Positions 29,341-32,818 of a DNA stretch of 64,000 nt are shown here, one piece after another (the first letter of the stretch is position 1; each line of letters starts with the position of its first letter). This stretch comes from Nioella sp. MMSF_3534. GTDB taxonomy: Bacteria; Pseudomonadota; Alphaproteobacteria; Rhodobacterales; Rhodobacteraceae. The stretch spans positions 62,001 through 126,000 of the forward strand of contig NZ_JASHJX010000004.1 in assembly GCF_030732985.1 (NCBI RefSeq), in the 5' to 3' direction. Made by a program: the position numbers and the translations under genes. Under the pieces are notes generated by a model. That model searched no databases. It was not told where the DNA came from and worked only from the letters and a program-made list of their open reading frames with translations.

Positions 29341-31395
29341 ATGCCGGCCCCTTCCGATTTGCTATCTTCCGTCTTCGGGTTTTCCGCCTTCCGCCCCGGG
29401 CAGGAGGAGATCGTAGAGGCCGTGACCGCTGGCCGCGACGTGCTGGCGATCATGCCGACGGGCGGGGGCAAGTCGCTGTGTTTCCAGCTGCCTGCTCTGT
29501 GTCGCGAAGGGCTGACCGTCGTCATCTCCCCCCTCATCGCGCTGATGCGCGACCAGGTGCGGGGCCTGCGCGAGGCCGGGGTAGAGGCCGGGGCGCTGAC
29601 CTCCGGCAATACCGAGGAAGAAACCGATGCGGTCTGGCGAGGGCTGGAAGAGGGCACGCTGAAGCTTCTCTACCTCGCGCCCGAACGGCTGGCATCCGGC
29701 GGGACGGAACGGATGCTGTCGCGCGCGGGCGTCAGCCTGATCGCGGTGGACGAGGCCCATTGCGTCAGCCAGTGGGGCCACGATTTCCGCCCCGACTACC
29801 TGCGTATCGGCGACCTGCGCCGGGCATTGGATGTGCCGCTTGCCGCCTTCACCGCGACGGCGGATGCCGAAACGCGGGCCGAAATCGTCACCCGCCTCTT
29901 CAGCGAGGCAAACCCGCCCGAAACCTTCCTGCGTGGCTTCGACAGGCCCAATCTCAGCCTCGCCTTTGACGTGAAGAACCAGCCGCGTAACCAAATCCTC
30001 GCCTTCGCCGCCGCCCGCAAGGGGCAGTCCGGCATCGTCTATTGCGGCACGCGGGCCAAGACCGAGACGCTGGCGCAGGCGCTGCGCGAGGCGGGGCACA
30101 ATGCCTGCCACTACCATGGCGGGATGGAGGCCGGGGACCGGCGCCACGTGGAAACCCGTTTCGCGCAGGAGGATGGGCTGATCGTGGTGGCGACGATTGC
30201 CTTCGGCATGGGCGTGGACAAGCCCGATATCAGGTGGGTGGCCCATGCGGACCTGCCCAAATCCATCGAAGCCTACTACCAGGAAATCGGTCGCGCGGGC
30301 CGCGACGGGGCGCCTGCCGATACACTGACGCTATTCGGCCCCGACGACATCCGCTTCCGCCGCAGCCAGATCGACGAGGGGCTGGCCCCGCCGGACCGCA
30401 AATCCGCCGATCATGCCCGGCTGAACGCGCTCCTTGGGTTGGCCGAGGCCACCGGCTGCCGTCGTCAGGTTCTGCTTGGCTATTTCGGAGAAGACCCGGA
30501 GCCCTGCGGCAATTGCGACATGTGCAACGACCCGCCGGACCTGTTCGAGGGCGGCGTCGCGGTGCAAAAGGCGCTCTCGGCCATGCTGCGCACCGGGGAA
30601 AGCTTCGGCGCGGGGCACCTCATCGACATCCTGATCGGGGCCGATACCGACAAGATCCGCCAGCGGGGCCACGATGCGCTGCCCACCTTCGGCGTCGGCA
30701 CGGAGTTTGACCGGCGCGGCTGGCAGGCAGTGTTCCGGCAGATGGCGGCCCATGACCTCGTGCGCCCCGACCCCGACCGCCACGGCGCGCTGTTCATGAC
30801 CGACAAGGCCCGCCCCATCCTGCGCGGCGAGGAAGGGATTACGCTGCGGCGCGACACGATCCGCAAGGCCGCGCGCCGCCCTGCCGTCAAGATGCTGGTC
30901 AGCGAGGAGGACGCGCCGCTGCTGTCGGCGCTGAAGGCCAAGCGCCGGGCCTTGGCGGAGGAGGCTGGGGTGCCCGCCTATGTAATCTTCACCGACAAGA
31001 CGCTGATCGAGATGGCCGAAACCCGGCCCGCGACGCTCGACCAGATGGCAAAGGTGGGCGGCGTCGGCGCAACCAAGCTCGACCGCTACGGCACGACATT
31101 TCTGGAGGTCATCACCGGCGAAACGCCGCAGGAGGCCCATCCGCAGCGCCGCAAGCTGGCCGGGCGCGATGCGGGCCCTATATTTGACCAACTGATGCAG
31201 GCGCAGGTGGGACTGGCGCGGGGCGAGATGGGGACGGAGAAATACCTCTCCTGCACCCACTCCACGATCCGCCAGATCGCCGAACGCCGCCCGGATACGC
31301 TGGAAGAGCTCGCGCGGATCCAGGGCATGGGGGATTTGAAGTTGGAACGCTTCGGACCGGCGTTTCTCGACGTGATAAGGGGAAGCGAATGCTGA
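29341..31395 (+). CDS. recQ: ATP-dependent DNA helicase RecQ
   Basis: 684-residue 3'-5' helicase. Seen: FRPGQEEIVEAVTAGRDVLA, Walker A PTGGGKSLCFQLP, VDEAHCVSQWGHDFRPDYL, motif VI EIGRAGRDGAP, the Cys4 zinc site around CRRQVLLGYFGEDPEPCGNC, the winged helix, and two HRDC-type repeats at the C-terminus (about residues 520-595 and 605-680). The start at 29341 gives MPAPSDLLSSVFGF; an upstream ATG at 29290 is possible. It overlaps yaaA by seven bases. Confidence 0.95.
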   Translation: MPAPSDLLSSVFGFSAFRPGQEEIVEAVTAGRDVLAIMPTGGGKSLCFQLPALCREGLTVVISPLIALMRDQVRGLREAGVEAGALTSGNTEEETDAVWRGLEEGTLKLLYLAPERLASGGTERMLSRAGVSLIAVDEAHCVSQWGHDFRPDYLRIGDLRRALDVPLAAFTATADAETRAEIVTRLFSEANPPETFLRGFDRPNLSLAFDVKNQPRNQILAFAAARKGQSGIVYCGTRAKTETLAQALREAGHNACHYHGGMEAGDRRHVETRFAQEDGLIVVATIAFGMGVDKPDIRWVAHADLPKSIEAYYQEIGRAGRDGAPADTLTLFGPDDIRFRRSQIDEGLAPPDRKSADHARLNALLGLAEATGCRRQVLLGYFGEDPEPCGNCDMCNDPPDLFEGGVAVQKALSAMLRTGESFGAGHLIDILIGADTDKIRQRGHDALPTFGVGTEFDRRGWQAVFRQMAAHDLVRPDPDRHGALFMTDKARPILRGEEGITLRRDTIRKAARRPAVKMLVSEEDAPLLSALKAKRRALAEEAGVPAYVIFTDKTLIEMAETRPATLDQMAKVGGVGATKLDRYGTTFLEVITGETPQEAHPQRRKLAGRDAGPIFDQLMQAQVGLARGEMGTEKYLSCTHSTIRQIAERRPDTLEELARIQGMGDLKLERFGPAFLDVIRGSEC

Positions 31396-32156
31396 TCGTG
31401 ATTTCACCGGCGAAGAAGCTGGACTGGACCGCGCGGGATGTGGAAATGACCGCGCCCATGTTTCAGGAGGATGCCGACCGGTTGGCAGAGGTCGCGCAGG
31501 GCCTGTCCGTGGCCGAGTTGCAAAAGCTCATGCATATCAGCGAAAGCCTTGGCAAACTGAACCGCGACCGCTTTGCCCGGTTCCATGAACACGCCGAAAA
31601 GCGCCCCGCTGTTCTGGCCTTTGCGGGCGACACCTATACGGGGCTGGAGGCGGGCAGCCTCGACGCCGAAGAACTGGCCTATGCCCAGGATCACCTACGT
31701 ATTCTTTCGGGCCTCTACGGGCTGCTGCGCCCATTGGATGCGATGCAGGAATACCGGCTGGAGATGGGCAGCCGGTTGAAGACCGACCGGGGCCGGTCGC
31801 TCTATGACTATTGGGGTGGCCAGATCGCCGAGGCGCTGAATGTCGAGGCGGACCGGCTGAACACTGAGACGTTGATCAACTGCGCCTCGGTGGAATACTT
31901 CACCGCCGTGAAGCCGGATGTTCTGCGCCCCCGCGTGATCACGCCCCAGTTCCTGGAGGAAAAGCCCGGCGGACCCAAGGTGGTCAGCTTCTTTGCCAAG
32001 AAAGCGCGCGGCGCGATGGCCCGCTTCATTATCCAGAACCGGCTGCGAGACCCCGAGGCGATGCTCGACTTCGACACCGGTGGCTATCGGTACGCACCGG
32101 AGCTGAGCGCGCCCGACAAGCCCGCCTTCTACCGGCCCGCGATGGCGGAAGTGTAG
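31389..32156 (+). CDS. yaaA: Peroxide stress protein YaaA
   Basis: 255-residue YaaA/DUF328 protein. In E. coli it lowers the intracellular free-iron level under H2O2 stress. Seen: the N-terminal MLIVISPAKKLDW, the RFARFHEHAEKRPAVLAFAG region, and LSGLYGLLRPLDAMQEYRLE with the downstream LINCASVEYF. Its first bases overlap recQ, and three palindromes follow the stop. Confidence 0.95.
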   Translation: MLIVISPAKKLDWTARDVEMTAPMFQEDADRLAEVAQGLSVAELQKLMHISESLGKLNRDRFARFHEHAEKRPAVLAFAGDTYTGLEAGSLDAEELAYAQDHLRILSGLYGLLRPLDAMQEYRLEMGSRLKTDRGRSLYDYWGGQIAEALNVEADRLNTETLINCASVEYFTAVKPDVLRPRVITPQFLEEKPGGPKVVSFFAKKARGAMARFIIQNRLRDPEAMLDFDTGGYRYAPELSAPDKPAFYRPAMAEV

Positions 32157-32163
32157 GGCGACA

Positions 32164-32225
32164 AAGCGGTTTGCAAACCGCTTGGAAGGGCCTTGCAAGG
32201 CCCTTTAACGCGCTTCAAGCGCGTT
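32164..32225. terminator. Three consecutive perfect palindromes between converging genes
   Basis: Three perfect palindromes stand 2 and 1 bases apart: 32164-32183 (20 bases, core GCGGTTTGCAAACCGC), 32186-32205 (20 bases, AAGGGCCTTGCAAGGCCCTT) and 32207-32225 (19 bases, AACGCGCTTCAAGCGCGTT). They fill the gap between yaaA and the rhodanese gene, both of which end here. A bidirectional terminator or transcript-stabilising element is the simplest reading. Confidence 0.75.
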
Positions 32226-32232
32226 GGCGCCC

Positions 32233-32679
32233 TCAACAGACCGTGCAGCCCATATCCCGCGTTGGCGCCACGGGGCTGTAGCCCTCGCGCAGAACCCGCA
32301 CCATGCCGCCCGCCACGTCAATGACCGGCGCGTCAACCGCCTCCGCAATCTGCCGCGTGGCGCGCGACGTGCGGTTCCCCGTCCGGCAGATGAGCGCCAG
32401 GCTCTGCCCGTCCTGCAAATGCGGACGCAGGGCGGAAAGAAAGCTGTCGCGATCCGCATAGGTGATCAACAGCGCGCCGTCGATCACGCCGGTCTGCTGC
32501 CATTCCTCGGGGCGGCGGATATCGACCAGCAGGACCGAATCGTCCTGGGCCAGCGCATCGCCCGACAGGGCCGCAAGGGTCAGGTTTTCCGGCTCTCGCC
32601 CACGCCCGAAGAGAAAGCCCGCGGCGGCAAGGGCCAAGGCGGCGGCGGAGCCGAAGGCGAGGAAAAGGCGTCTGTCCAT
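32233..32679 (-). CDS. Membrane-anchored rhodanese-like protein
   Basis: 148-residue single-domain rhodanese. An N-terminal signal/anchor (MDRRLFLAFGSAAALALAAA) directs it to the membrane or periplasm. Seen: LLVDIRRPEEWQQTGVIDGA and the active-site loop LICRTGNRTSRA with the catalytic Cys. The C-terminus ends MGCTVC, adding a CxxC pair. Thiosulfate or persulfide sulfur transfer is likely. In-frame upstream ATG codons are possible starts; 32679 was chosen because it puts the anchor first. Confidence 0.82.
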   Translation of the reverse strand: MDRRLFLAFGSAAALALAAAGFLFGRGREPENLTLAALSGDALAQDDSVLLVDIRRPEEWQQTGVIDGALLITYADRDSFLSALRPHLQDGQSLALICRTGNRTSRATRQIAEAVDAPVIDVAGGMVRVLREGYSPVAPTRDMGCTVC

Positions 32680-32818
32680 GGCGCGTCTCATGCAATGAGG
32701 ACTGTCAATGCGGCGCATTTAGTCCTGGGGGGCGATGTCTTCAACCGCACGGATCAGGTGGCATTGTCGCAGCGCCTGTGATCTGCTCTGCACCCGTGAG
32801 ACCAGCGAGAGGAACGCG

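Follow-up and report, generated by a model that had tools for sequence, protein, structure and literature searches.

What is a row of three perfect palindromes doing between two converging genes? The window, a stretch of 64,000 nucleotides from the genome of Nioella sp. MMSF_3534 (here G000), holds such a row at 32164-32225. An earlier note, made from the letters alone, had described palindromes of 20, 20 and 19 bases with spacers of one or two bases between converging genes, and this description was confirmed.

The window array and its neighbours

The features of the locus, in order, are:

31389-32156, plus strand: yaaA-family gene (peroxide stress protein), first convergent partner; Pfam PF03883, E 3.5e-85
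32155-32160, no strand: left half of an outer inverted repeat, AGGGCG; overlaps the yaaA stop codon
32164-32183, no strand: palindrome module 1, AAGCGGTTTGCAAACCGCTT; 10+10, perfect
32186-32205, no strand: palindrome module 2, AAGGGCCTTGCAAGGCCCTT; 10+10, perfect
32207-32225, no strand: palindrome module 3, AACGCGCTTCAAGCGCGTT; 19 bp, 9+1+9, with a 1-base centre
32228-32233, no strand: right half of the outer inverted repeat, CGCCCT; reaches the stop codon of the rhodanese gene
32233-32718, minus strand: rhodanese-domain gene, second convergent partner; Pfam PF00581, E 2.2e-9

As yaaA stops at 32156 and the rhodanese gene ends at 32233, the array occupies 62 bases of the 76-bp gap. It starts 7 nt after yaaA, with GG between modules 1 and 2 and T between modules 2 and 3. 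The outer repeat, which the earlier note does not mention, encloses all three palindromes, and its halves pair in the minimum-energy RNA fold of both strands. That predicted fold is a four-way junction of a 6-bp outer stem and three hairpins, with energies of -46.9 and -44.8 kcal/mol on the two strands (z -5.05 and -5.14). A single module is predicted to fold as a hairpin with a stem of 8-9 bp and a loop of 3-4 bases.

The array is the sole run of at least two adjacent palindromes (arm of at least 7, loop of at most 5) in the 64 kb; in each of 20 first-order Markov sequences such runs numbered 0-2. The pattern AA-N5-TT-NN-AA-N5-TT has three matches in the window: module 1, module 2 and the overlap between them, module 3 being one base too short. 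A hundred dinucleotide shuffles averaged 0.13 matches and never reached three. Rfam families searched over 31389-32800 at E of at most 1 gave the array no match; the sole match, below threshold, lies at 32402-32441. Plasmids and phages likewise held no match to the window array in a search by sequence, which is blind to architecture. The string CGCGTTGGCGCC occurs twice, 38 nt apart, at 32220-32231 on the edge of the array and at 32258-32269 within the rhodanese gene.

Modules across the genome and their placement

The earlier note took the row for a modular element and proposed searching the genome for similar palindrome clusters. That search found many arrays, mainly at convergent junctions, and bore the reading out: the same module architecture recurs in tandem across the genome with many different cores. 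A blastn search of the 4.15-Mb genome (105 contigs) with a 131-bp query gave 12 matches at eight places including the window locus, and the other seven held tandem palindromes wherever they were read. The general pattern matched 197 times, with overlaps of neighbouring modules counted in, as against 20 times for its reversed control.

We collected 33 arrays. Array 3 (the same locus as array 4) and array 27 (outside the class) were omitted from the module analysis, which covered 63 modules in 31 arrays, about half of them found via the GGGCC core; the 19-bp module 3 of the window was excluded from these counts of 20-mers. Modules are mostly 20 bp long, with the half-block AA-N5-TT and a 2-base centre, and the 33 spacers measure 1-6 bases. 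Where the spacer is 2 nt, AA and TT repeat every 11 bp. All nine pairs are present in 61 of the 63 modules, in a collection for which at least eight of the nine were required. Fifty-eight modules have AA..TT ends and the other five AC..GT ends; the centre dinucleotide is CG in 40 and GC in 18. There are 27 cores among the 63 modules, which suggests that symmetry is maintained rather than one sequence. The same core occurred twice within an array once, against 4.7 expected (permutation 0.021).

The module AAGGGCCTTNNAAGGCCCTT, with the arms of module 2, has 17 exact copies in the genome and no copy with one mismatch. Allowing up to two mismatches gives 33 copies in G000, 32 in G003 and 31 in G001, and of the two-mismatch variants listed for G003 and G001, 27 of 29 were again perfect in their arms. 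G003 has a single one-mismatch copy, and there the mismatch breaks a pair.

A tally over 494 kb of G000 put arrays at 12 of its 407 gene junctions. Nine of the 12 are among the 71 convergent junctions, three among the 264 co-directional ones and none among the 72 divergent ones, and no array lies inside a gene. The enrichment at convergent junctions over the rest (p = 1.3e-5) rests on home-made gene calls, from a codon-usage script that was trained on G000 and misses some small genes, such as the rhodanese gene in G003. Extrapolating from these 12 junctions, a genome of this kind would carry about a hundred arrays. The palindrome class also stands out in an unselected scan of 464 kb, where 17 of 21 class modules were convergent, four co-directional and none inside genes, while 24 of 42 other palindromes (including a few near-members of the class) lay inside genes. 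For 17 of the 21 modules the distance to a stop codon is at most 60 nt; for the remaining four it is 100-336 nt. By the crude gene calls, co-directional modules make up 9 of 16 in G003 and 6 of 14 in G001, a higher share that arises at least partly because small genes were missed. Loci from other genera gave 30 convergent, 21 co-directional and two divergent modules, with 10 inside genes and six at an edge.

Conservation and distribution among relatives

The closest comparisons are with G003, G001, G004 and G002, which we take to be N. ostreopsis, N. sediminis, N. nitratireducens and strain W635; their yaaA genes are 96%, 93%, 84% and 85% identical to that of the window. The earlier note had named, as evidence that would go against its reading, the conservation of just one palindrome in close relatives. 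This was not what the comparison showed: all three persist in both N. sediminis and N. ostreopsis, the latter having a single arm base changed in module 3. No palindromes were found 3' of yaaA in N. nitratireducens or W635, and in the former the sequence after yaaA is unrelated to the array.

Of the 33 arrays, 12 had no orthologous sequence, and arrays 3 and 32 (misaligned) were left out of the other 21. Two of the 36 possible comparisons were set aside because their 40-nt flanks were below 50% identical. In the remaining 34, all with two close relatives, 6 of 1440 arm positions had changed (0.4%), against 36 of 147 spacer positions (24%), 281 of 2720 positions in the 40-nt flanks and 2304 of 27005 (8.5%) in the wider flanks. 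Because many orthologues had been fetched via the GGGCC pattern, modules unlike GGGCC were counted separately; in these, which played no role in the choice of orthologues, 4 of 828 arm positions had changed. Set against the diverging flanks, these counts place the arms under strong constraint. With 3 of 160 positions changed, the module centre seems to be conserved too. Mild conservation extends to the 8 nt adjoining the arrays, where 36 of 544 positions had changed; beyond them the count was 245 of 2176 (p = 0.001). Among the three species, none of the six changed pairs, two of which are alignment gaps, was a compensating double change: four break pairing in the relative and two restore pairing that is broken in G000.

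Within the genus, three genomes are rich in arrays (pattern matches against control: G000 197/20, G001 193/14, G003 188/13) and three are not enriched (G002 14/11, G004 9/15, G005 11/15). Outside G000 these counts cover 16 hand-chosen genomes, which also include enriched members of other genera (G007 122/14, G046 194/19, G163 109/2, G273 101/3, G340 188/13, G366 168/4, G297 129/30, G083 67/5) and three further genomes (G008 51/49, G012 28/25, G010 96/36). When genomes were drawn evenly from the family, seven of 159 (G000, G007, G046, G056, G083, G142, G163) passed a cut-off of 60 or more pattern matches at three or more times the control count. The other 152 were not clearly enriched; among them G153 (30/8) and G089 (19/1) may carry a weaker form. 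The exact GGGCC module occurs in 15 of 394 family genomes, and the yaaA neighbourhoods of 15 further genomes, array-bearing G007 included, hold no class palindrome. In an even draw of the taxonomic class, two of 142 genomes passed the cut-off, G000 and G480. The second (169/15) was a false alarm: the matches listed for it come from an AT-rich repeat that is not palindromic, a dispersed 20-mer near AATTAAATTAAAAAGAAATT with many copies in a 2.0-Mb genome from another family of the class.

The array-less sister shows what can stand in the same places. At one orthologous junction G004 has no array, and its two stop codons, as we read them, are separated by nothing more than a short gap of about 13 bp. 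Elsewhere a loopless 20-bp palindrome in G003 (C47:223395-223414) is matched in G004 (C84, about 64121-64150) by an ordinary looped hairpin, and CCTCCGGCGGGAGTATTT follows in both. A 180-kb sample of G004 contained no class palindromes at equal GC (0.642, against 0.640-0.643).

This patchiness, with arrays present in one lineage and absent from the matching place in its sister, is what a mobile or selfish repeat would leave, one resembling REP/BIME elements or MITEs, spread by a transposase and lacking a cellular role. Identical modules are dispersed (17 exact copies with AAGGGCC), and G000 has one RAYT-like gene. REPs likewise lie mainly between convergent and unidirectional genes (PMC3733652), and like the REP/BIME elements described there the arrays are small multicopy extragenic palindromes, often clustered downstream of coding regions. 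Against such an origin, the arrays have an architecture in common rather than a sequence, with their 27 cores, and their arms are frozen on a diverging background. Unlike the REPs of that account, they carry no shared sequence and no GTAG/CGTC tag, and almost none of the G-T pairing of REP stems. RAYT (PF01797) was found in two of 17 genomes, G000 and array-less G012, and in none of ten array-bearing relatives (G001, G003, G007, G046, G163, G273, G340, G366, G297, G083), so we rejected it as the cause of the arrays. We regard a mobile repeat as quite improbable. The RAYT-like domain at G000:C58:16377-16667 is the sole Y1 transposase match in that genome, and none was found in its two nearest relatives.

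A probable role at transcript ends and the symmetry of the modules

The earlier note argued that three palindromes in a row set the element apart from terminators, which rarely come so. This was not supported. The arrays sit 3' of genes, mainly convergent ones, a place in which one would expect two-way terminators, and clusters of hairpins are a described form of terminator. Gupta and Pal (2021, PMC8355165) report intrinsic terminators of hairpins less than 15 bases apart, with 98% of sites within 80 bases of the stop codon and two-hairpin clusters the commonest. The arrays resemble these in having at least two closely spaced hairpins shortly 3' of a stop codon, and their spacers of 1-6 nt fall within that distance; by our crude gene calls, some arrays lie more than 80 bases from a stop. 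They differ in their near-fixed-length, almost always perfect palindromes, the AA-N5-TT rule, the preference for converging genes, the frozen arms and the restriction to a lineage. The E. coli inverted repeats of at least 8 bp with short spacers, enriched just 3' of stop codons and at mRNA ends (PMC6060812), have cruciform potential and are alike in size and position; most of those are described as parts of intrinsic terminators, whereas the arrays are tandem perfect palindromes with a half-block rule. Searches of an open-access library turned up no title or abstract opening on such arrays in Rhodobacteraceae.

Could the arrays then be ordinary intrinsic terminators, symmetric by accident? They follow stop codons and would form hairpins of 8 bp with a 4-base loop, and hairpins followed by T-runs also exist in G000. 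But a U-tract is missing: over 8 nt, 41 of 60 outer flanks lack T altogether and no flank has more than three. Outward flanks open with CCCC in 26 of 60, and arrays are often G-rich before and C-rich after. The missing U-tract means that the arrays are not classic terminators either. Accidental symmetry would hardly leave imperfect modules at 2 of 63, nor a class that three genomes of the genus have in abundance, that shows no enrichment in the three others and that is missing from 180 kb of G004 at equal GC. We consider this explanation very improbable.

Bidirectional intrinsic terminators of convergent genes consist of an A-tract, a stem and a U-tract. The arrays share with them a single symmetric element that would serve both strands; they differ in that the A- and U-tracts are cut to two bases, in having two to four tandem modules and often in an outer C-run. 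It seems probable, on balance, that the arrays are tandem, bidirectional hairpins lacking U-tracts that set the 3' ends of mRNAs from converging genes, through either termination or protection. We prefer this two-way 3'-end element for its placement 3' of converging genes, its perfect pairing and its symmetry, and because published work links clusters of hairpins to the ends of transcripts. In bacteria studied elsewhere, hairpin sites predicted close to stop codons match 72% of comparable RNA-seq-derived ends, two-thirds of the predicted sites are clusters, and two tandem hairpins downstream of M. smegmatis gyrA terminate better than one (PMC8355165).

We infer that either converging transcript would enter two or three perfectly self-complementary tandem modules soon after its stop codon. 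Every module would then fold into a hairpin, and in the window the outer stem would close the hairpins into the four-way junction. The hairpins may jointly pause or release RNA polymerase; alternatively, they may cap the RNA against 3' exonucleases once Rho has acted. Each transcript would thereby be kept from running into the opposing gene, perfect symmetry would give the same action from both sides, and unlike cores within one array might reduce mispairing between hairpins.

Several observations stand against a 3'-end element. There is no U-tract, and module stems, with a median stability of -10.9 kcal/mol, include AT-rich ones of about -3 kcal/mol. Nor is there visible replacement of U-tract terminators. 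These are also present at 2 of 11 array-bearing convergent 3' ends. In array-less G004, 4 of 56 convergent ends carry one, compared with 20 of 142 in G000; at co-directional ends G004 has more (9 of 98, against 9 of 264), and at the orthologous junction described above it has nothing but the short gap. The arrays as substitutes for U-tract terminators were thus not seen at convergent ends. Pairing of the outer stem is no better within than between arrays (own flanks 16.7, swapped flanks 16.3, 30 arrays, p = 0.30), and the outer stem is kept solely as a property of the window array. Loss of Rho was rejected as the cause of the arrays, since the Rho RNA-binding domain occurs both with and without arrays: 16 of 17 genomes have it, including all six of the genus, and the exception, G163, is 84% complete.

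Two-way use alone does not predict that co-directional arrays should be about as symmetric as convergent ones, yet centres are self-complementary in 35 of 44 co-directional and 58 of 66 convergent modules (p = 0.29). This likeness would suit an element that works as DNA, either a cruciform or a symmetric site for a protein that is dimeric or reads structure; it would insulate converging transcription or take up supercoils, and RNA hairpins would be a by-product. Self-complementarity that spans the centre (CG or GC in 58 of 63), the low rate of change there relative to the wider flanks, the 11-bp recurrence of AA and TT across 2-nt spacers, and weak AT-rich modules as perfect as GC-rich ones all point the same way. 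On the other side, the 27 different cores of the 63 modules speak against a sequence-specific protein, the 3' placement and the empty divergent junctions fit transcripts better, and the positive supercoils that arise between converging genes would oppose cruciform extrusion. A DNA-level role keeps some credit because the centre is symmetric and seemingly conserved and co-directional arrays are about equally symmetric; we think it unlikely, though far from negligible.

A broader idea, which we hold only tentatively, is that the arrays are a lineage-specific punctuation in which symmetry rather than sequence is read. Free-core tandem palindromes between converging genes, with 0-2 unpaired centre bases and no U-tracts, might be recognised as multi-hairpin RNA or DNA junctions by a patchily inherited trans factor or a modified termination machinery.

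With three array-rich and three array-poor genomes, the genus offers a natural experiment on the ending of converging transcripts in the absence of U-tracts, and on RNA as against DNA reasons for perfect symmetry. If the modules work as proposed for a 3'-end element, they would be short two-way terminators with free cores, useful in Roseobacter-group genetics.

Variants of the arrays were also seen. At G000:C17:95498-95586, convergent genes flank three AT-rich palindromes of 24 bp with the centre TTC-NN-GAA or TTCCGGAA, which follow the same design at greater length. Related arrays in G083 (L102), G163 (L117) and G366 (L092) have longer palindromes of 22-30 bp. In some of these the centre is not TTNNAA but, for example, TGCGCA, and G163 has a 243-bp repeat of an entire array. 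In G056 identical palindromes, mostly AAGCGGTTTCGAAACCGCTT, are paired 112-152 bp apart, with ten pairs among about 50 listed sites; these pairs break the rule that modules within one array differ. At one G056 locus (L227), one such palindrome stands beside each of two convergent stop codons.
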